This document shows, piece by piece, positions 1 to 22,681 of a stretch of 52,207 nt of DNA (position 1 is the first letter of the stretch; each line of letters opens with the position of its first letter). Source of the DNA: a virus; the IMG/VR virus record IMGVR_UViG_3300025872_003055, positions 1-52,207 of that record. The stretch is one strand, 5' to 3'. The translations under genes and the position numbers were made by a program. The notes beneath the pieces were generated by a model. The model saw only the letters and a program-made list of their open reading frames with translations, was not told the DNA's origin and made no database searches.

Positions 1-359
1 TTTTCAGGATTTTTTCGTCTTGGGTGATTATCACCTTTCAAATGCTCCCAATATTGAGGATTTTTATTTCTGGCATGATTTTTACCAGTTCCCCAACCTT
101 GAGGTTCATTAGAAAGATTTAAACAACCATTTCTACCGTAATGGATAGAAAGCATTTCTCTTTCAGTTTCTCTTTTGTCAGTATCTTCATTGAATATTTC
201 TAGAAATATCCAATCATTGGGATACTTTTTAAGAGAGTTATGAAAATGGTCATTTCCTTTAAACTTTCTATGAAATCTTTCCCTTTTTTTGAGGGTCATT
301 GAGGTTGAACCCCAATAATAATCTCCGTTAGAAAGTCGTATCGCTAAGTAAGTTATCAT
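1..359 (-). CDS. GIY-YIG-like homing endonuclease in psbA intron 2 (partial, runs off the window)
   Basis: The ATG is at 359-357 and the frame stays open to the window edge, so the C-terminus is missing. The N-terminus (about residues 3-20, containing YLAIRLSNGDYYWGS) resembles a divergent GIY-YIG core. A later NP-x-YWEHLKGDNHPRRKNPE segment resembles the NUMOD3-type DNA-binding repeats that follow GIY-YIG domains in phage endonucleases. The ORF starts only about a dozen bases after the 3' strand of intron P7, so it is encoded within the second psbA group I intron and presumably promotes its mobility. Family assignment is by eye. An HNH or unrelated intron ORF is less likely because no Cys/His pattern is visible. 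Confidence 0.6.
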   Translation of the reverse strand, partial: MITYLAIRLSNGDYYWGSTSMTLKKRERFHRKFKGNDHFHNSLKKYPNDWIFLEIFNEDTDKRETEREMLSIHYGRNGCLNLSNEPQGWGTGKNHARNKNPQYWEHLKGDNHPRRKNPE

Positions 360-570
360 GGAAGTTAGACTATATCTTCATCCTTTATACTAATTATAGC
401 ATAAAGGAGTTGGGCGCTTAATCCTGTTATTAAGGAGACTGAACTCCTCAGGTAGTCGTTGAACCTTTCCCAAGTGTACTCGGGACTTGGCTGCTGATTG
501 GAGTGGTTATCCCTTTCCAGCAATTCACCCAATTTACTTCTTACGATTACTCGTAAGTGACACCATCTAG
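1..570 (-). ncRNA. Group I intron 2 of psbA (partial, 3' end outside the window)
   Basis: The minus strand shows the conserved group I core in order: a P4-P6 block (GGGTGAATTGCTGGAAA then CAATCAGCAGCCAAG), the 5' strand of P7 (GGTTCAACGACTA), a P7.1/P7.2-like insert, and the 3' strand of P7 (GAAGATATAGTC) at about 366-377. Exon 2 ends ...ACAT and the intron starts CTAGAT. The internal guide GTGTC at 563-559 pairs with ACAT and gives the U.G wobble expected at a 5' splice site. The core is near-identical in several blocks to intron 1. The ORF sits after P7, as in many phage introns. Confidence 0.85.
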
Positions 571-1581
571 ATGTTGTTGCCGTACATTAGAGACCCAGCA
601 ACAGGTTCTCTGATCCCATCGCATCATCTAACAAACAACCATATCTTCTGACTTAGGTTGTTTCTGTTGAGATTTTGTAAACTGGTTTATTCCATTTGGA
701 TTTCCACCAGAGCAAGTACCATACTCATCAAGTCTTGCTTCATAACCTAACTTAGCCATTTCACTTCTTCCACCATTTTCTACCCACTCTTTCCAAGTTT
801 GTAGATGAGAAATACATTCGGTTATTCTTTCTCCTCGTCTTACTCCCATATAAGGAAGTATTTTTTGTAGAATGAATAAGACCTTTTCTTTTTCTCCGAT
901 GTGAAGTGTATAAACTTGTTTACCTTTTACAGTTTTTCTTGATGGTAAGAAATAAGACTTATCTAAAAGTTTACTTAACCTTTGGATAATATCTTCATCT
1001 ACCATAGAAACTCTAATATAAGGTGATGGTGGTGTTTTAGAAACTTCATAACGGTCTTTGGAACGATTGTCTATCCCAAAGTATCCTTCACCTTCTAAAA
1101 TACCAGCAATCCAAGCAACATCAGTTTCAGTTAAGTTTAACATTTGGTTCTCAAATACTGTATTATTTATACAACATTTGAAATAAAAAAGTCAACAGTA
1201 GATGTGTGGACTATATCTTCACCCTTCATAGAAGGGGCTGGGCACTTAAACCTGTTATTAAGGAGACTCAACTCCTCAGGTAGTCTCTGAACCTTCCTTA
1301 GATGTATCTAAGGCTTGGCTGCTGATTGCCTTTCGGTTTCCAGCAATTCACCCAGTTTCGTCAATACTCTTACGAGTAAGGGACACCGATTAAAGCGTAA
1401 TGTCTACAGGGGGATTTGCAATAAATGCAATGATAAAAACCGAAGTAGCAACAAGCAGGCAAGGAATCATAAGAACTCCAAACCACCCCACATAAAGACG
1501 ATTATCGGTTGAAGTAACCCAGTTACAGAATTGTTCCCAGGCATTTGCGCCAGAACGGCGTGTTGAAATTGTAGCAGTCAT
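571..1581 (-). CDS. psbA: psbA, photosystem II D1 protein, exons 1 and 2 (partial, split by introns)
   Basis: D1 is the photosystem II reaction-centre subunit. Cyanophages carry it to replace host D1, which is quickly damaged during infection. Exon 1 is 1581-1400 (61 codons, the last split; [18 protein letters not shown] to NPPVDI). Exon 2 is 621-571, about 17 codons ([16 protein letters not shown]). The remaining roughly 280 residues must lie beyond base 1. The junctions were placed so that each upstream exon ends in U and intron 1 ends in G, restoring VDI-DGIREP exactly as in known D1. Translation without splicing would stop 3 codons into intron 1. No strong Shine-Dalgarno precedes the ATG, and the upstream frame is open for another 47 codons but has no D1 similarity. 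A composite early/late promoter lies at 1763-1797. Confidence 0.93.
628..1143 (-). CDS. LAGLIDADG homing endonuclease in psbA intron 1
   Basis: The protein has 171 residues. Near the N-terminus it contains [12 protein letters not shown], a clear LAGLIDADG-type motif with the acidic catalytic residue. One copy is visible, so it probably acts as a homodimer, like other single-motif intron enzymes. It would cut intron-less psbA and drive intron homing. The TAG stop (630-628) lies within the last bases of the intron, so the gene is wholly intronic. It has its own promoter: a T4-type late box TATAAATA at 1164-1171, 21 bases before the ATG, with a possible TTGACT -35 at 1190-1195. An intron ORF with a private late promoter matches the strategy of T4 intron endonucleases. 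Confidence 0.88.
   Translation of the reverse strand: MLNLTETDVAWIAGILEGEGYFGIDNRSKDRYEVSKTPPSPYIRVSMVDEDIIQRLSKLLDKSYFLPSRKTVKGKQVYTLHIGEKEKVLFILQKILPYMGVRRGERITECISHLQTWKEWVENGGRSEMAKLGYEARLDEYGTCSGGNPNGINQFTKSQQKQPKSEDMVVC
1164..1195 (-). promoter_or_regulatory. Late box / possible sigma70 hybrid promoter for the intron 1 endonuclease
   Basis: TATAAATA at 1164-1171 is a perfect T4-type late box. TTGACT at 1190-1195 lies 18 bases upstream of TATAAA, so the same bases could act as a sigma70 -10. Transcription would start just ahead of the ATG at 1143. Confidence 0.65.
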
Positions 1582-3747: not shown

Positions 3748-4538
3748 TAGATGACAGTCCAAGTTTCAGGAATTAAATCTTTGGTTTCTTTATCGGCATT
3801 ATTCGGACCAAACCACTTTGATGGTGCGATGACCTTTTCACTCTTTGCCAACCAAGCACCCCACCAGGAGAACGATGAATTGGCAATGATGTGTCCCGTA
3901 CAGAAAGTCATCAGGCACAGATCAATCTTATTATCACCAGATTCGGATACAAGGAACCGATCATCCGAAAACAGTTCTTGTTCCTGACACCACTCTGAAT
4001 CATCAGAGAAAACAATGACCTGTCTCCCATCAAAATGTTTCAGTGCTTCTTCATAATAACTCAAGTCTAGATTATGATGATTCGCATTATTTGTCAAGTA
4101 GTCTGTGCGACGAACGTGAAGAGAAACTGGATTGTCAAAACCTTCAGCAATCTCTTTACACGGTTCTAGAATGTGATCTCTGAACGTAAAGTCTTCAAGA
4201 ATACTATTCTCTATATGCTTAAAGTATTTCTCCGACTGAAAGAATCCAAACAGTGATACGTCATTTGGACACTGATCAAATAACAGTTGATCAAAATGAA
4301 AGAATCGTTCTTGAGCAACAGGAGCATTACCACCATCCAAATACTTGACATTTGATCTAGGAAGATTTGGAAGATCAAAGACTTCAAACAACTGATGAGA
4401 TCTCCACTCATCCTCAAACTTAGAAGGTGGAATACCAAAGTCATATCCTCTACGGGCAGCAATGCCCCTCAATGAGGCATACTGAAACATCTGATTGCCC
4501 AGTCTACCCAGATGTCCTAAATGATTAAATGCGAGCAT
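3747..4538 (-). CDS. Alpha-1,2-fucosyltransferase-like, GT11 (copy 1)
   Basis: 263 aa. LGNQMFQYA at residues 14-22 and the HVRRTDYL motif near residue 141 are diagnostic of GT11 enzymes, which use GDP-fucose. The C-terminal NSSFSWWGAWLA block is also typical. A second GT11 lies two genes upstream (5337-6170) and a GT10 fucosyltransferase at 13317, so the operon looks equipped to build a fucosylated glycan. The start is set at the ATG inside the end of the upstream gene; a GTG one codon earlier is possible. Confidence 0.9.
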   Translation of the reverse strand: MLAFNHLGHLGRLGNQMFQYASLRGIAARRGYDFGIPPSKFEDEWRSHQLFEVFDLPNLPRSNVKYLDGGNAPVAQERFFHFDQLLFDQCPNDVSLFGFFQSEKYFKHIENSILEDFTFRDHILEPCKEIAEGFDNPVSLHVRRTDYLTNNANHHNLDLSYYEEALKHFDGRQVIVFSDDSEWCQEQELFSDDRFLVSESGDNKIDLCLMTFCTGHIIANSSFSWWGAWLAKSEKVIAPSKWFGPNNADKETKDLIPETWTVI

Positions 4539-6526: not shown

Positions 6527-6839
6527 TGGCATTAATTCCTTTATCGTCAATGTAGTAATCACCAGAGGGTTTACCGAGAACTAACTTGTGATACTTACAA
6601 CCCCAACTATCGAGTTGATTCTTTGTAAGTTCATAGAACATTCTTTTCGCTAGGTCAGCATTGTCGCCTGACCTACCCATACCTCTAGCGGTAAGATAAA
6701 TGATTTGGTTTCCTTCATCATACAACTTATTTATTTTGGCAATTCTATCGGGGTTTGGGATACTAGTTTCATAGTCACAGTCATCCCGACACTCTGGTTT
6801 ATCACAGATTGTACCGTCAATATCAACCACATACTTCAT
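6507..6839 (-). CDS. HAD-superfamily phosphatase
   Basis: 110 aa, beginning MKYVVDIDGTICDKPE with the catalytic DxDGT loop at residues 6-10. IIYLTARG is motif II and YYIDDKG carries the C-terminal acidic pair. The small capless form resembles sugar- or capsule-related HAD phosphatases. Given the HldE-like genes in this operon it could dephosphorylate a sugar bisphosphate, but the substrate is inferred only from context. It overlaps both neighbours. Confidence 0.82.
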   Translation of the reverse strand: MKYVVDIDGTICDKPECRDDCDYETSIPNPDRIAKINKLYDEGNQIIYLTARGMGRSGDNADLAKRMFYELTKNQLDSWGCKYHKLVLGKPSGDYYIDDKGINANEFFGD

Positions 6840-7747
6840 TCAAAACACCTCCGATAAGCATTCCAGTAATCAAGAGTTTCTTTCGGAACAATATCTTGCC
6901 AATCAGATAAACCTCGGATTAAATCAGTTGTATAACGATATCCAATGATCTCCTTCTCAAGATTGGTAACTAAATCCTGAACGTTTCGGTCTTGGTAAAC
7001 TGATGCCTTGTTATACACAACACTCTTGGGGAAATAATGCTGAAGAACATATCCACCCCAAATATCATCCATCCGCCCAACATGAGGGAATACCGAATAA
7101 TATGGAATGACTTCCCGTGCCAGAAAAGTATTTTGACTATTGAATGGTGAGATAGAAAGAGATCCATAAGGACCTTGAATCTTATCAAACTTTACAATGG
7201 GACGAATAGATAATCGTGCCATCGCATCAATATCAGGATCACCATCCCATAAATCTGCCTGAACAAGAACTCTACGCTTGAGTTTGCCACCATAAGAAAC
7301 TCGGTTCCTATAAGGAACCAAATCAATTGGATATCCACGATGCCAGACTTGATTATGTTCTGTGACCGACAGTGGATCAAAGACTCCAAGATCAGTATTA
7401 TAGAAATCAATCTCTACAGTTTCACCAACAATAACATTGGTTCCCCAATCATCATAAGGAATATTATCATCATCAACGGTCGCAACAATATCAGCGCCAC
7501 GATTATATGCTTCAACAAATCCAATATTACGACGTTGAATAGACTTCCATCCAATAGTCTCACTCAATTCTGGATATGTTTTCTCTTGATATTCTGGGGA
7601 GAGATAAATGCAATTTAGATTTTCATACTCATAATGTGGGGTTTTAGTATCACCCACCACAATCAGTGTCCAATCCTCTTTTCTTGAATACTTGATGGTA
7701 GCAAGAGTCGGGGGATTAATAGTTGTCGTTACAATATATTTGTTCAC
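6836..7747 (-). CDS. STELLO-like glycosyltransferase
   Basis: 303 aa. The opening IVTTTINPPTLATIKYS, the GWKSIQRRNIGFVEAY block and the acidic IVATVDDDNIPYDDW motif match the STELLO-type / reversibly-glycosylated-protein-like GT-A fold. The DDD would bind metal and nucleotide sugar. No membrane segments are seen, so it is probably cytosolic. It overlaps both neighbours by four bases and sits in the glycan operon. The sugar specificity cannot be read. Confidence 0.7.
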   Translation of the reverse strand: MNKYIVTTTINPPTLATIKYSRKEDWTLIVVGDTKTPHYEYENLNCIYLSPEYQEKTYPELSETIGWKSIQRRNIGFVEAYNRGADIVATVDDDNIPYDDWGTNVIVGETVEIDFYNTDLGVFDPLSVTEHNQVWHRGYPIDLVPYRNRVSYGGKLKRRVLVQADLWDGDPDIDAMARLSIRPIVKFDKIQGPYGSLSISPFNSQNTFLAREVIPYYSVFPHVGRMDDIWGGYVLQHYFPKSVVYNKASVYQDRNVQDLVTNLEKEIIGYRYTTDLIRGLSDWQDIVPKETLDYWNAYRRCFE

Positions 7748-8622
7748 ATTAAATACTTTTCAACGAAGTGTTTTGTTGTGTAGTTATTCACTGCCTTATT
7801 ATAAGCGTTTTTTCTCATTTCGTCAAACTCATCATAATGATTAATAATGTATTCTAACTTCTTATCAAGATCCGTTTCATCATCAAAATACATAAAGTCT
7901 TCATCGGGAGTAAAGAAGTATTCGATTGGATTCCAGGGATCTCTTTGACAAAGAATTACACATTTAGAAAATGCTGCTTCAAACATTCTAGATTTAATTT
8001 GAGGCATTGTTCCACGATCAATATGAGTAAATGCTTTATTATCCCTACCTCTAGGAAAGTTATAATAGTTTTCTGCGGTTGCTGGATCAATGTTACAAAG
8101 ACCATGAACAACTGACACTTTAGTTTCGGAAAGCATTCTCATCTTATCAGAATACGAACACCTAGGAACATTACCCATACTATAATGTCCGAATCTAAAA
8201 TTATATTTGGTAAAGACATTCTGGATGTAACTATCCCAAGGTACTGACCTTGGAAGACTTCCAAAATAAGATACATCAATTACCTTTTCTCTCTCTTCTG
8301 GAATCCAGTCCTCACTGAAGGGAAAGAAAGCAAAAGTTCTATTATCAAAAAGTTCAGCAGTATATGGACAAATAGTTAGAATTGTATCTGCCTTTTCATG
8401 AAGAACTGATTTTGGACCTTGAACAACACAGAAGTTTGGTTCTTCTAATGTCAGAACAACTTTTTCTTTATCTTCATATTGACCAGAATATAGGTCACCA
8501 TAAAAATCTGCCATAAACAAATAACAGTCTCTAGCAATATCTTCATACTTTTCAAAATTTAAATAGTATAAAGGATCTTCAGTAAGTCCATTCTCTGGTC
8601 TTACAAAATTTAAAACTTTCAT
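7744..8622 (-). CDS. Glycosyltransferase group 1 (GT-B fold)
   Basis: 292 aa. The C-terminal half contains a stretch with FEAAFSKCVILCQRD and DEDFMYFDDETDLDKKL, typical of group 1 glycosyltransferases of the CgeB/PF13524 type, where the conserved region binds the nucleotide sugar. The N-terminal acceptor domain is not recognisable. Coupled to neighbours by ATGA-type overlaps. The donor sugar is unknown. Confidence 0.72.
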   Translation of the reverse strand: MKVLNFVRPENGLTEDPLYYLNFEKYEDIARDCYLFMADFYGDLYSGQYEDKEKVVLTLEEPNFCVVQGPKSVLHEKADTILTICPYTAELFDNRTFAFFPFSEDWIPEEREKVIDVSYFGSLPRSVPWDSYIQNVFTKYNFRFGHYSMGNVPRCSYSDKMRMLSETKVSVVHGLCNIDPATAENYYNFPRGRDNKAFTHIDRGTMPQIKSRMFEAAFSKCVILCQRDPWNPIEYFFTPDEDFMYFDDETDLDKKLEYIINHYDEFDEMRKNAYNKAVNNYTTKHFVEKYLM

Positions 8623-9413
8623 AGAACCTCATTAATATCTTCTTGAGTTAAAATATAAACTCCCATATGCTGGACAGATTTGGAAGCCAGATAAACTGCC
8701 TTTGGTATGGCAACATTTAAATCTCTAGTATGTAAATAAAAGTAACAAAGAGTTGCCAAGAAAACATCACCTGCTCCAGTTACATCAAACACATCTACTT
8801 GAGGAGATCTGTATACATTATCTTTCCACTTTGCTCCCATCTTACCCATTGTGACGACTAGTTCACAATTTTTGGGTAGACTCTTCATTTTGTTTTCTTC
8901 ATCATTGTTAATCTTGATGATAGAATTATTAAAGTGTTTCAAATCTGGATTCTTACTATCAACAAAAATTGGTCCACCAAATTTTTCACACAAAACACTA
9001 ATTGATTCAAGATCAAGAATTCCTTTACAATAGTCAGATATAATTACAGCATCATACTTTTTACAATCAGGTATTTCCACAACATCTACCTGGTGTCCAA
9101 GATCTTCTCTTAAAAGAAGTTGATTGGACTTAGTATCCACAAATCTTCTTTTGATTAGTTGGTCTGGATCGTTGGTAATAAAGTCAACATCCAAACCATA
9201 GGCAAGCAGATTCTCTCTGACGTTTGCTGCCATTCCTGGGCGAGTTTCTTCTGCTCTGTAATCAAATACAGGAACAGGTGCCTCCGCACATAACCTGTCG
9301 CAGACACCATAGTGATAAATGTCTTTACAAGACTCACCGATAAGTAAGACCTTGAAGTGTTCTTGTTGTTGAATATTCTCCAACTCTGTCAAAAAACCGA
9401 ACTGCCTTGGCAT
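8619..9413 (-). CDS. PfkB-family sugar kinase, HldE N-terminal domain-like
   Basis: The C-terminal VDVFDVTGAGDVFLATL contains the ribokinase/PfkB catalytic DTGAGD-type motif, here DVTGAGD. VLLIGESCKDIYHYG and a GMAANVRENL segment match the heptose-7-phosphate kinase (HldE/RfaE1) N-terminal region. It probably phosphorylates D-glycero-D-manno-heptose 7-phosphate or a related sugar at C1. The nucleotidyltransferase half is a separate gene just upstream. The first ATGs (9422 or 9413) lie inside that gene, so the two overlap by 80-89 bases. Confidence 0.82.
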   Translation of the reverse strand: MPRQFGFLTELENIQQQEHFKVLLIGESCKDIYHYGVCDRLCAEAPVPVFDYRAEETRPGMAANVRENLLAYGLDVDFITNDPDQLIKRRFVDTKSNQLLLREDLGHQVDVVEIPDCKKYDAVIISDYCKGILDLESISVLCEKFGGPIFVDSKNPDLKHFNNSIIKINNDEENKMKSLPKNCELVVTMGKMGAKWKDNVYRSPQVDVFDVTGAGDVFLATLCYFYLHTRDLNVAIPKAVYLASKSVQHMGVYILTQEDINEVL

Positions 9414-9732
9414 AATGTCCACCTACAACCTCTTTACCTTTCCAATCAGATCCTACGACCATTATATCAGGATTTATTGTTTTTATCAAATCCTCAAGTT
9501 CTTCTTTACTATTAAAGATATGAACAACATCAATATAACGTATTGCCTGTAATACTTTGGAACGATCCTCTTGGGAAAAGATTGGTCTTTCCTTTCCTTT
9601 CATCTGTGCGACTTTCTCATCAGAGTCAATCGCAACAATCAAATAATCACCCAGAGACTTTGCATACTCAAACAGTTGAATGTGTCCAGGATGAAGCACA
9701 TCAAAGCATCCGTTTACAAAGATGATTTTCAT
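9334..9732 (-). CDS. Sugar-phosphate nucleotidyltransferase, HldE C-terminal domain-like
   Basis: 132 aa. VNGCFDVLHPGHIQLFEYAK has the HxGH cytidylyltransferase signature, and the end has GEYSTTRTLQ, the STT-type motif of RfaE2/HldE-C. It would transfer a nucleotide (ADP or CDP) to the sugar 1-phosphate made by the kinase encoded next. In most bacteria kinase and transferase are fused in the opposite order (kinase first). Here they are two overlapping genes with the transferase first. Confidence 0.87.
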   Translation of the reverse strand: MKIIFVNGCFDVLHPGHIQLFEYAKSLGDYLIVAIDSDEKVAQMKGKERPIFSQEDRSKVLQAIRYIDVVHIFNSKEELEDLIKTINPDIMVVGSDWKGKEVVGGHYAKAVRFFDRVGEYSTTRTLQGLTYR

Positions 9733-10220
9733 TTCTCCCCCATAATCATAAATGAGTTATTCAAATCAATCCCAGAAACAAATACGTTCCTATACCCACG
9801 ATCAACCATATAATCACGAATCATCTCTGGCACAAATACGTGCTTGTGCTTTCGGTTGTTCCATGGTCTCCAATATTTCTGACTATAATCTGGAAGATAA
9901 AGAAAAAGAACTCCACCATCTACCAGACGTTCATACCAGTAGTTCATTGTCTCAACCCAATCATCAACGTGCTCAAGACAATGACTAGAAAAGATATAAT
10001 CAGGATCTTTCTCTGGAAGATGATTGGCATCCCAAGGATCATCAAAACTCAAATCAATTGGAGTGGATCCAGGAAAAGACCATTCTGGTTTCATACATCC
10101 AATATCATATCCAAACCCAGAACAAACGTGCTTGGCAAACGGAATCGCAAACTGCGAAGCATTACCAATCGCTTGAAAATGAGGGTATTCAGTTTGCTGA
10201 TAATTGATTGTTTTAATCAT
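9729..10220 (-). CDS. SAM-dependent methyltransferase-like protein
   Basis: 163 aa. FGYDIGCMKPEW supplies an SAM motif I-like stretch, and DYIFSSHCLEHVDDW followed by GGVLFLYLPD is the classic type 11 methyltransferase pattern (motif II and post-motif). It may O-methylate a sugar of the glycan built by this operon. The start codon ATG at 10220 overlaps the stop of the previous gene (ATGA). The Rossmann core is short at the N-terminus, so activity is less certain than fold. Confidence 0.72.
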   Translation of the reverse strand: MIKTINYQQTEYPHFQAIGNASQFAIPFAKHVCSGFGYDIGCMKPEWSFPGSTPIDLSFDDPWDANHLPEKDPDYIFSSHCLEHVDDWVETMNYWYERLVDGGVLFLYLPDYSQKYWRPWNNRKHKHVFVPEMIRDYMVDRGYRNVFVSGIDLNNSFMIMGEK

Positions 10221-10969
10221 TGATATTGCCAGGGCAGATTGAATAAGTATCTTGTTTGCGACCAATCACCCCAACGGTGATGAAGGAACATTGGTTTGTC
10301 TTTGACCTTATCAAAGAGTTCAGAAGTCTCAAAGAGATAGTTCCAGGATGTTTCAATAAAGTTATATGCTGCTGCTTTTTCAATGACTTTACACCAGTCA
10401 AACAAAGAGTATCCTTCAATATGCTTTGCCTCTACGACTTGTGCTCCACCATAGTCAGCAGGATTTACAGATATTCTATCACAGATTTCAACTTGTGGTC
10501 TTGTACACCAATAACGATTAACAAGAACATACACATCATCATCTTTGAGTCCTAGGACATCATAAAACAGTTTATCTTCCTTTTCTTGATTGCGAACAAA
10601 CTTAATATGATCTCTCCAATCTGTCCAGTCCATTCCAATACTATCATACTTACCTGCCATGATTGGTTGATAGTTTCCAAAACCCTGAAAGTAAAACAAC
10701 TCATCAGTGATTTCAGTCTGCTTCTCTGGAAGATAATGCTGAATTCCAGGAAACTGAACGTGCTCTGGTAATGGTGGACGAGTCAGTTTTACTTCTTTAT
10801 CATCCCAAGAAATAAAATTAAAGTCTGGAATATAATCGTTCAACCATTCAAACTCAGATACAACTGGCCAATAGACTTCATATCCTTGGTCTTTGATATG
10901 ATGTGCCAGTTTTTGAAGAAATAAAATATCTCCAAGACCACAGGGTTGGTAAATTAATCCTACTTTCAT
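10217..10969 (-). CDS. GT9-like (heptosyltransferase-fold) protein A
   Basis: 250 aa. MKVGLIYQPCGLGDILFLQK is the GLGD-type N-terminal motif of the GT9 heptosyltransferase superfamily. A C-terminal FIETSWNYLFETSEL region would correspond to the nucleotide-sugar binding part. It is paralogous to the gene immediately upstream (10966-11688). Both could transfer the heptose activated by the HldE-like pair. Similarity to GT9 is weak apart from the N-terminus. Start chosen at the ATG overlapping the preceding stop. Confidence 0.6.
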   Translation of the reverse strand: MKVGLIYQPCGLGDILFLQKLAHHIKDQGYEVYWPVVSEFEWLNDYIPDFNFISWDDKEVKLTRPPLPEHVQFPGIQHYLPEKQTEITDELFYFQGFGNYQPIMAGKYDSIGMDWTDWRDHIKFVRNQEKEDKLFYDVLGLKDDDVYVLVNRYWCTRPQVEICDRISVNPADYGGAQVVEAKHIEGYSLFDWCKVIEKAAAYNFIETSWNYLFETSELFDKVKDKPMFLHHRWGDWSQTRYLFNLPWQYQ

Positions 10970-11688
10970 TCTACCTCCATTGGAGTCATCTCTCTCCACT
11001 CATCTCTGGTATACTCAATCCACTGCCATGGTTTCTTGAGAATCCCATCATAGACTCGTTCTGAATACTTATAATGACGTGGATGAATCGTAAGTCTTGT
11101 TGCTTTGAGATCTAATGTCTCCATCACATAATGAAGTGATGTGTCAACAGAATGCATCTCTTCGGCATTCTCAAATACCCAGCACCAATCAAAAACTTTA
11201 CCACCAGGAACGTTGGGATCCATCTCAACAACCTTCCCATCATATCCTTCTGGGATTTGTTGGTAAACTCCTTTCATTGGTTTGTAGACACTGTAGTATG
11301 GATTGACGAAAATAAAAGGATCTCCCTTCTCTAATCCAAGTCGCTTACGGAGATTTTCTTCTCGTTCAAGATTGCGTTCATACTTAAAGTAATCTTGCCA
11401 GTCATCATAAGAAACTCCAACAGCATCATACTTCGTTCCCATTACATCCCAAGATCCTCTTGGTTTGGGAACATTAGACAAATCAAGAACTCCAACCTCA
11501 CCAGAAGGAAGTTGGAGTTGTCCTTGAGCACCAATATGGGAATTAGTAATCATCTGGTCTACGCCAGCAGACCAGCAGGAAGGGGTAACTGGATGATAGA
11601 CAGTATGTTCTTGAGATAATACTGTTGCTATTTTCTGAATAAAGAAAATGTCACCCAGTCCTCCTGGTTGATCAATAATGATATTCAT
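10966..11688 (-). CDS. GT9-like (heptosyltransferase-fold) protein B
   Basis: 240 aa beginning MNIIIDQPGGLGDIFFIQK, with the same GLGD motif as its neighbour. Shared segments include the VG-(V/M)-DWxD-(W/Y)-(F/K)-K-x-xRN region and the V-FDWC-V motif. Tandem paralogs of this kind usually act on successive positions of one glycan, though this is inference. The start overlaps the stop of the dehydratase upstream. Confidence 0.6.
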   Translation of the reverse strand: MNIIIDQPGGLGDIFFIQKIATVLSQEHTVYHPVTPSCWSAGVDQMITNSHIGAQGQLQLPSGEVGVLDLSNVPKPRGSWDVMGTKYDAVGVSYDDWQDYFKYERNLEREENLRKRLGLEKGDPFIFVNPYYSVYKPMKGVYQQIPEGYDGKVVEMDPNVPGGKVFDWCWVFENAEEMHSVDTSLHYVMETLDLKATRLTIHPRHYKYSERVYDGILKKPWQWIEYTRDEWREMTPMEVE

Positions 11689-16271: not shown

Positions 16272-16394
16272 TCAGTATTGCAGGCTCGCCACCAATTCTT
16301 TAACTGGAAATTGGAAACCAGGCGGGAGAGATTCCCATCCGCACCAGTCGTCACTTATAATGCCCATACGACGAGGGCAAGACCTTGACTCCAC
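16272..16394 (-). CDS. Putative 40-aa protein (GTG start)
   Basis: From GTG at 16394, or an internal ATG nine codons later, to TGA at 16274-16272. The peptide contains MGIISDDWCGWESLPPGFQF followed by PVKELVASLQY. It is compositionally sensible but no Shine-Dalgarno is seen, and I know no family. It is followed directly by the terminator at 16240-16269. Confidence 0.4.
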   Translation of the reverse strand: MESRSCPRRMGIISDDWCGWESLPPGFQFPVKELVASLQY

Positions 16395-21312: not shown

Positions 21313-21384
21313 AGCGTCCTATCGAATTTGAATCGATCCCTCCAGAGTGGAAATCTGGGATGCTGCCGCTGACACCAAGGACGC
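21313..21384 (-). tRNA. tRNA-Gly (anticodon UCC)
   Basis: 72 bases. Acceptor GCGTCCT/AGGACGC, anticodon stem CCAGA/TCTGG with loop TTTCCAC (anticodon TCC), T-stem ATCGA/TCGAT, discriminator U as required for Gly. CCA is not encoded. Confidence 0.9.
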
Positions 21385-21463: not shown

Positions 21464-21538
21464 GATCCCCCGCTCGGAATCGAACCGAGAATCTTCCGCT
21501 TACAAGGCGGATGCAGTAACCGTTATGCTACAAGGGAT
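21464..21538 (-). tRNA. tRNA-Thr (anticodon UGU)
   Basis: 75 bases. Acceptor ATCCCTT/GGGGGAT with two G.U pairs, anticodon stem TCCGC/GCGGA with loop CTTGTAA (anticodon TGT), T-arm CTCGG/CCGAG with loop TTCGATT. Its 5' end is overlapped by the last codons of the HNH gene. Confidence 0.88.
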
Positions 21539-22530: not shown

Positions 22531-22602
22531 CAGGCTCACTTGGAATCGAACCAAGAACACAATTTTAGAAGAATTGGGTTATCTCCATTTAACTATGAGC
22601 CC
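22531..22602 (-). tRNA. tRNA-Arg (anticodon UCU)
   Basis: 72 bases. Acceptor GGGCTCA/TGAGCCT, anticodon stem CAATT/AATTG with loop CTTCTAA (anticodon TCT), T-stem CTTGG/CCAAG with loop TTCGATT, discriminator G. It reads AGA, rare in the host but used by AT-rich phages. Confidence 0.9.
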
Positions 22603-22643
22603 AAGAGACCTCCCTGTTTGTGCTTCTATGAGAGGCATGGGAG

Positions 22644-22681
22644 GGGCGGGACTTATGAGAGGGTTGGAACCTCGCCTGCCC
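22644..22681 (-). other. Leader hairpin of the tRNA transcript
   Basis: Imperfect long stem GGGCaGG...CCcGCCC enclosing GAGG-TTCCAAC-CCTC, which looks like a T-arm. It could be a tRNA relic. Confidence 0.35.

Follow-up and report, generated by a model that had tools for sequence, protein, structure and literature searches.

psbA of the window and its sister contig

We analysed a stretch of viral DNA, hereafter the window, which is the whole linear contig of IMG/VR record IMGVR_UViG_3300025872_003055 (52,207 bases) and which carries a psbA gene interrupted by two group I introns, the contig ending inside the second. Its genes include those for a DNA polymerase, a UvsX-like recombinase and NrdA, by which we take the virus for a T4-like cyanophage. 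psbA and all its features given below lie on the minus strand; the gene runs off the contig start behind a PhotoRC-II RNA (1621–1729; Rfam RF01717, 53.8 bits against a gathering score of 39), the structured leader upstream of cyanophage psbA. Exon 1 (1400–1581), located by tblastn and splice-aware alignment to D1, ends with GACAT, two bases into the split Ile60 codon. It is followed by intron 1 (622–1399, 778 nt; psbA nt 179 in standard numbering), by the 51-nt exon 2 (571–621; CGATGGG...AACAACAT), which matches the D1 residues at 100%, and by the first 570 of the 914 nt of intron 2 (1–570), which interrupts Ile77 (nt 230) and is cut by the contig end. The introns were delimited by Rfam, intron 1 also by its borders with a T at the exon end and a terminal G. 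Missing from the window are the last 344 nt of intron 2 with the 3′ splice site, roughly half of the endonuclease gene in this intron and all later exons. Both endonuclease genes are placed beyond the last core strand, in the P9 region: a single-motif LAGLIDADG gene in intron 1 (628–1143, 171 aa; Pfam LAGLIDADG_3) and the first 119 aa of a GIY-YIG gene in intron 2 (3–359; Pfam GIY-YIG). Ahead of the LAGLIDADG gene, intron 1 contains the octamer TATAAATA (1164–1171), which we take to be a late promoter of the T4 type, like the one that serves I-TevI in the td intron.

Both cores exceeded the gathering score of 50 in a covariance search with Rfam RF00028 (intron 1 at 1409–1190, 68.6 bits, E = 2.2e-15; intron 2 at 585–347, 85.1 bits, E = 2.5e-20), which confirms the two group I introns of an original prediction made for this DNA. 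The prediction was also correct in placing both introns within an Ile codon after ACAT, with a U·G pair at the splice site and targets 51 bases apart: the AU/C codons of Ile60 and Ile77 are split after ACAU, 51 nt from each other, and both introns have a 5′ splice site after a U paired with a guide G and a terminal G (intron 2 by way of the sister contig). The splice mapping required T and G at the intron borders, and the P1 pairing is independent evidence. The guide GGUGUC is present in both introns and pairs with GACAU in intron 1 (5 exon pairs). The predicted sharing of GTGTC thus stands for the guide itself and fails for its pairing in intron 2, in which P1 contains 4 exon pairs (ACAU/GUGU), not 5, and the C of GTGTC lies opposite an A. 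P1 and P2 hairpins were predicted in both introns; folding was clearly better than that of shuffled sequence for the intron 2 stretch only (z −2.71; −0.51 for intron 1).

The missing part of the gene is supplied by the sister contig L080 (contig 3300025732_003547), which matches the window without a single difference over the 1407 bases between the end of exon 1 and the window edge, including 570/570 bases of the intron 2 stretch, whose full length there is 914 nt. Its psbA is complete and contains five introns, all five over the Rfam group I threshold, at codon.phase sites 60.2, 77.2, 216.0, 331.2 and 338.0 (778, 914, 893, 253 and 234 nt, respectively). These labels refer to S-TIM54 codons, standard D1 numbering being one codon less. 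With this offset, splice-aware mapping restored the reading frame and gave the expected amino acid at 13 of 13 key residues of D1 in the spliced genes of L080, L132 and S-SRM01. The spliced D1 of L080 is divergent at residues approximately 92–116 and 186–199 (LYNLWDAASIDEALYNGWAYQ; FSAEHNILMNPLHM), with the 13 checked residues intact.

The predicted LAGLIDADG gene in intron 1 and GIY-YIG gene in intron 2 were both found by Pfam. The LAGLIDADG protein of the window scored 22.3 bits (E = 1.6e-4), just below the cut-off of 22.5; its motif WIAGxLEGEG is unchanged in nine of nine aligned sequences including the window, with both Glu residues kept in all nine. Relatives are encoded at 30 viral loci, and a protein at site 183 of contig L078, 39% identical to that of the window, scores 36 bits in Pfam. 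The window protein matched 137 records of a phage collection (31–36% identity among the 25 matches listed), and a bacterial genome scan with the LAGLIDADG alignment gave one confirmed relative, a protein of a Chloroflexi metagenome-assembled genome (32%). Solved structures were discarded as a guide to this protein, giving weak matches only (best E 0.014, to I-AniI). In contig L082 (4001–4510), the site-60 LAGLIDADG gene has an internal stop and is perhaps a decaying endonuclease. The GIY-YIG domain is N-terminal (26.8 bits, E = 6.3e-6, for the 119 aa of the window; 24.1 bits for the 234 aa of L080; cut-off 22.6), and a Pfam profile search identified no DNA-binding domain C-terminally. The site-77 GIY-YIG protein matched one record of the phage collection, a Yersinia phage protein (23.6%). 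The gene runs for 234 aa to the intron end in L080 (4786–5488), where it has no in-intron stop and enters the next psbA exon for 5 aa, out of frame; L115 (4001–4918) has a site-77 GIY-YIG open frame of 305 aa, likewise without a stop inside the intron.

Introns in psbA of T4-like cyanophages

In uncultured T4-like cyanophages, psbA is a hotspot for introns, with up to nine per gene. We compiled a census by scanning viral contigs with guide and core patterns and with the two endonucleases, and added S-PM2 and S-SRM01. It comprises 81 records, 80 of which have at least one intron, and 194 introns; nearly all records were chosen for a mapped intron, so the census says nothing about prevalence. 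Fourteen more records with psbA exons and no mapped intron are uncounted (S-TIM54, S-CREM1 and 12 IMG/VR contigs, most of which end beside the intron, while psbA of contig L084 is uninterrupted), and sites 141.1 and 163.1 (L193) and 335.2 (L186, two introns merged) were dropped before counting. Sixteen sites recur in at least two records: 60.2 (39 records), 77.2 (12), 93.0 (8), 106.2 (12), 137.0 (2), 167.1 (3), 183.2 (11), 186.1 (3), 191.0 (3), 216.0 (33), 251.0 (5), 297.2 (11), 331.2 (11), 335.0 (12), 337.0 (14) and 338.0 (13). Labels 330.2 and 341.1 each occur in a single record, and the latter is probably a misplaced 338.0.

The 45 near-complete genes contain one (10 genes), two (9), three (10), four (12), five (2), six (1) or nine introns (1); L186, counted with fewer introns, gives five Rfam matches. 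The highest number, nine group I introns, was found in contig L132 (IMGVR_UViG_3300042987_001812, approximately 6650–11260), with nine Rfam matches, eight above 50 bits and one of 48.7. An EndoVII-like (F-CphI-like) gene follows this psbA. Chloroplast contamination as the source of the multi-intron contigs was ruled out by the PhotoRC-II leader and by phage neighbour genes: those for DNA polymerase, UvsX and NrdA in the window, for EndoVII and glycosyltransferases in L132, for alpha-glucosyltransferase in L040, and for both alpha-glucosyltransferase and topoisomerase II in L115.

Sixty-five records span both sites interrupted in the window; 32 have an intron at site 60 only, 9 at site 77 only, 3 at both (two viruses) and 21 at neither. 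The 40 site-60 introns consist of 23 long introns, 15 short ones poor in open reading frames (ORFs) and 2 with a GIY-YIG gene. A P1 with U·G contains 4 pairs in 12 of 12 introns at site 77 and 5 pairs in 37 of 40 at site 60, two more of the latter having 8 pairs at a later guide position that is maybe not real.

Among named phages, psbA is present in 512 records, and the cyanophage-named records among the matches listed in two core searches (all 22 records of one, 40 of 75 of the other) were S-PM2, S-RSM88 and S-SRM01. In S-SRM01 (NC_070963.1, 1379–3784), we mapped psbA as four exons separated by three group I introns, which lie at nt 276, 750 and 1002 and have Rfam scores of 39.0, 91.9 and 81.5 bits, respectively, the first below the gathering score. 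The annotation of this genome gives two partial psbA ORFs and leaves the last two exons unannotated. Our literature search, consisting mostly of titles and abstracts with scarce coverage of subscription papers, returned no multi-intron map of a cyanophage psbA beyond a remark on S-SRM01.

Relationship between the introns at sites 60 and 77

The original prediction called the cores of the two window introns near-identical and derived one intron from the other. The cores are only alike, at 76% identity with gaps counted and 83% over ungapped columns. Intron 2 is not closest to intron 1 of the same phage: the similarity between the two (0.761) ranks 385th of 520 site-60 by site-77 pairs, and each has its closest counterparts at the same site in other phages (0.937 for intron 1 and 0.943 for intron 2). 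As the window pair shows no more than average similarity, any jump is older than this phage. The idea of descent keeps some ground at the level of the sites. With gaps counted, each of the 13 site-77 cores has its closest match among the site-60 cores; over ungapped columns this holds for 10 of the 13, and the remaining 3 are closest to site 93. Core trees place sites 60 and 77 in one set, which also contains site 251 and one or two more rows (support in the Shimodaira–Hasegawa-like approximate likelihood ratio test, SH-aLRT, of 99 with 54 rows and 87/86 with 58 rows). With approximately 146 alignable columns, too few, the trees were rejected as a decisive test. No core could be extracted from 20 of 146 introns, including 7 of 7 at 331.2 and 6 of 8 at 337.0; 9 of 17 non-psbA cores were left out of the identity analysis and the approximately unbiased (AU) tests, and three more out of the 58-row tree.

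A recent local transposition would have produced intron 2 from intron 1 in the lineage of this phage, either by reverse splicing into a guide-pairable site or through illegitimate repair there, followed by an endonuclease swap. The common guide, the distance of 51 nt, the nearest-core relation and the joint tree set are in keeping with such an event, but it is largely refuted for this phage by the rank of the window pair and by the same-site affinities; moreover, site 77 is occupied without site 60 in 9 of 65 records, and a GIY-YIG gene is also found at site 60. We regard this origin as very improbable.

As a sign of descent, the shared guide is weak. With G·U allowed and at least 4 contiguous pairs required, GUGUC fits 36 of the 322 T-ended positions in the psbA of S-TIM54 and 29 of the 381 in that of L080. 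Furthermore, sites 106.2 and 251.0 share the guide GGGUCAC on cores just 67% alike, while the cores at 251.0 and 60.2 are 80% alike. This control and the count of pairable positions rule out the guide match as proof of descent, and the unpaired C of the guide is no relic of site 60, since the same C is unpaired in introns at other sites.

The same observations leave room for the site-77 intron having been recruited from another phage gene, its likeness to site 60 reflecting a wide family of phage introns and its guide the target letters ACAU. Four-letter guide matches are common, as seen above, three site-77 cores are nearest to site 93 over ungapped columns, and a core of the phage cr116_1 is about equally similar to both sites (0.81 and 0.80). 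Set against this, nine non-psbA cores have mean similarities of 0.59–0.81 to site 77, none above the site-60 introns (0.83), and the mosaic introns described below tie sites 60 and 77 directly. Recruitment is unlikely in our judgement, if less so than a recent local jump. The core of cr116_1, a crAss-like human gut phage (L007, 2443–2711), is a group I core approximately 80% identical to both psbA introns; the intron lies between an endonuclease gene behind an rIIA-like gene and a gene for a 'protector from prophage-induced early lysis'.

Mosaics were sought with 39 columns that separate 37 site-60 from 11 site-77 introns. The site-60 intron of L040 is of the site-60 type through P1–P2 and then mostly of the site-77 type (12 versus 21 columns). 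Conversely, the site-77 intron of L068 is of the site-77 type in its first 22 columns, followed by 10 columns of the site-60 and 5 of the site-77 type. The columns are not clean everywhere, 6 of the other type occurring in L067 at site 77 and 4 in L078 at site 60. The site-60 intron of L040 and L070 carries a GIY-YIG gene whose 199-aa product is related to the site-77 protein, with 36% identity over nearly the full length (E = 2e-36), a conserved N-terminus and a diverged C-terminus. Parts of the introns have thus crossed from each of the two sites to the other, a GIY-YIG gene has been resident at both, and the predicted later acquisition of a different endonuclease by the moved intron is too simple, since two contigs have a site-60 intron that already contains a GIY-YIG gene related to that at site 77. 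Derivation of one intron from the other accordingly gains from the core similarities and the mosaics as far as the sites are concerned, and loses as a move within this phage. The mosaics favour recombination of homologous cores, although the data do not decide between this and reverse splicing, which takes four to six guide pairs, or the ectopic moves also proposed for relaxed endonucleases (PMC3984707).

The LAGLIDADG gene appears to have a mobility of its own. The octamer TATAAATA follows the P7 strand and precedes the ORF in 23 of 23 site-60 LAGLIDADG introns (three being copies of the window virus) and is found in 0 of 11 site-77 GIY-YIG introns. L084 contains a free-standing promoter and LAGLIDADG gene (3955–4480), 87.9% identical to the window over 519 nt and starting approximately 50 bases past the stop of its uninterrupted psbA; no group I intron was detected by Rfam in the 8,477 bases of this contig, and the similarity to the window drops to 23 of 45 bases upstream of the promoter. 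By these comparisons, the late-promoter motif and the LAGLIDADG gene seem to behave as a mobile cassette able to leave the intron. Another neighbour pair is formed by sites 183.2 and 186.1, which lie 8 nt from each other and have LAGLIDADG genes of 82–83% identity.

Homogenisation of introns within one phage was ruled out. Different-site cores of the same contig, with the window and three near-duplicate contigs left out, showed no excess likeness (−0.0015 over 116 pairs; 1247 of 2000 permutations were as high). In L085, the cores at sites 183.2 and 216.0 are 99.3% alike in one psbA, likely a recent exchange inside the gene.

We consider it probable, at roughly four chances in five, that these are mobile self-splicing introns of one extended group I family, settled at many psbA sites of T4-like cyanophages, and that the site-60 and site-77 lineages have a distant common ancestry, exchanged parts and arrived separately in the window phage. 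The two introns of this phage would then be separate, already distinct residents, and the link between their lineages older. Judging from the anatomy, GGUGUC would pair with GACAU at site 60 or ACAU at site 77, guanosine would attack after the U, and the usual two-step splicing would join the exons and restore the AUC codon of Ile. Each endonuclease would cut psbA alleles lacking its intron, and repair would copy the intron in; the LAGLIDADG gene with its own late-promoter motif may travel along as a cassette. Several points weigh against this interpretation. Splicing, cleavage and homing are deduced from sequence, and the LAGLIDADG protein falls just short of its Pfam cut-off. The site-60 target of the L084 psbA is intact (GTAGACATTGATGG), which is awkward if the cassette enzyme cuts there. 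AU tests reject none of four groupings (site 77 alone, p = 0.52; 60 alone, 0.18; 60 and 77, 0.27; 60, 77 and 251, 0.47), many forks not being settled, and the mean values of the cr116_1 core to sites 60 and 77 come close to the 0.83 between these sites.

Elsewhere in the window, we found a wcaG RNA motif (16278–16380, 81.8 bits), an abiF small RNA (22608–22644, 44.8 bits) and three tRNAs (21313–21384, 21465–21537 and 22531–22602).

Chloroplast insertion sites and known systems

In standard numbering, the recurrent phage sites are nt 179, 230, 276, 317, 408, 499, 548, 556, 570, 645, 750, 890, 992, 1002, 1008 and 1011. We compared them with the group I sites reported for chloroplast psbA in Oedogonium (179, 276, 384, 408, 525, 548, 570, 645, 754 and 898; PMC2442088 Table 4), Ulva (179 and 750; PMC10151680) and Scherffelia (525; PMC4743939). 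This partial set of 11 distinct sites excludes the group II psbA intron at nt 576 and does not include intron positions of Chlamydomonas, Scenedesmus, Pseudendoclonium and Chlorella. Seven of the 11 sites coincide with a phage site to the base and in phase (179, 276, 408, 548, 570, 645 and 750), six of them occurring in Oedogonium alone. Window intron 1 (nt 179) is among the coinciding sites, and intron 2 (nt 230) has no counterpart among the 11 sites collected.

The overlap expected by chance is 0.2 to 0.9 sites, depending on the null. The probability of the coincidence was 2e-11 for any position, 1.2e-9 for 478 T-compatible positions, 8e-8 for 324 T-ended positions, 2.2e-7 for 149 positions in the most conserved stretches and 1.5e-6 under the least favourable null (the 214 positions where at least 80% of genes have T). 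Six of the 10 Oedogonium sites coincide when this alga is taken by itself (P from 1.3e-9 to 1.7e-5). These values are to be read with a bias of the scans, in which sites 179, 230 and 645 were pattern targets and one scan favoured ACAT sites; the rest came along.

Homing sites tend to fall in conserved sequence, and D1 is highly conserved at the phage and chloroplast sites. Convergence is a possible explanation: endonucleases of unrelated origin would have settled independently on the same, most conserved parts of psbA. It gains from the nuclease exceptions, namely GIY-YIG in two phage introns at 179 and LAGLIDADG in two at 548, and from nt 750, where T5orf172 in Ulva (PMC10151680) faces short phage introns. 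It is opposed by the agreement in exact base and phase at seven of 11 sites, by the low probabilities even among T-compatible positions and in the most conserved stretches, where five of five chloroplast sites are phage sites, and by the nucleases, which belong to the same family and occupy the same loop at the four sites where phage and chloroplast introns both have one. LAGLIDADG lies in L9 at 179, single-motif on both sides, and HNH in L5 at 276, 408 and 548. The agreement at 548 is weak, resting on an HNH_2 match below threshold (16.1 versus 21), and HNH at 276 and 408 was assigned by likeness to the site-645 protein, which passes the Pfam HNH cut-off.

The positions are common to both groups, and common descent of phage and chloroplast introns may account for them. 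We give somewhat less than even odds to a single pool of mobile psbA introns common to T4-like cyanophages and green-algal chloroplasts, with the phage gene as a reservoir, introns and endonucleases passing between phage and plastid directly or via cyanobacteria and moving between neighbouring sites by core recombination and by endonuclease cassettes. The coincidence of phage and chloroplast sites was not reported in the literature covered by our search. Exact site sharing makes the link between phage and plastid testable by sequence and bears on the origin of algal psbA introns.

The td, nrdB and nrdD (sunY) introns of phage T4 offer a parallel to related cores with different endonucleases and to an intronic endonuclease with a late promoter, distributed there over three genes with one intron each. 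The mosaics of sites 60 and 77 and the free-standing cassette provide natural snapshots of introns changing sites and endonucleases. S-PM2 resembles the present system in its group I intron in psbA, its endonuclease F-CphI beside the gene (PMC5931967) and a related core found by blastn, and the free-standing cassette of L084 resembles F-CphI in its location. S-PM2 differs in having one 212-nt intron at another site, after D1 Arg334, and an EndoVII-type endonuclease outside the intron. An intron at that site (nt 1002) is present in 12 of 81 census records, including S-PM2 and S-SRM01. S-PM2d splices its single psbA intron in a light-dependent manner (PMC5931967), and in light of this a multi-intron psbA could be strongly regulated or costly. 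S-SRM01 likewise has several introns in one psbA, but none at sites 60 and 77; the paper describing it suspects one intron and reports two partial psbA ORFs (PMC8557907). In Twort and the Bastillevirinae, one gene contains up to three group I introns, in other genes and hosts (PMC11878797), and the nine introns found here in a 1.1-kb gene exceed the three per gene of the published phage cases compared. Oedogonium cardiacum and Ulva share insertion sites and nuclease types with the cyanophages and differ in that the gene is of a green-algal plastid and that the sites tabulated for them do not include nt 230 (PMC2442088, PMC10151680); for Oedogonium, the authors proposed intron transfer among algae (PMC2442088).

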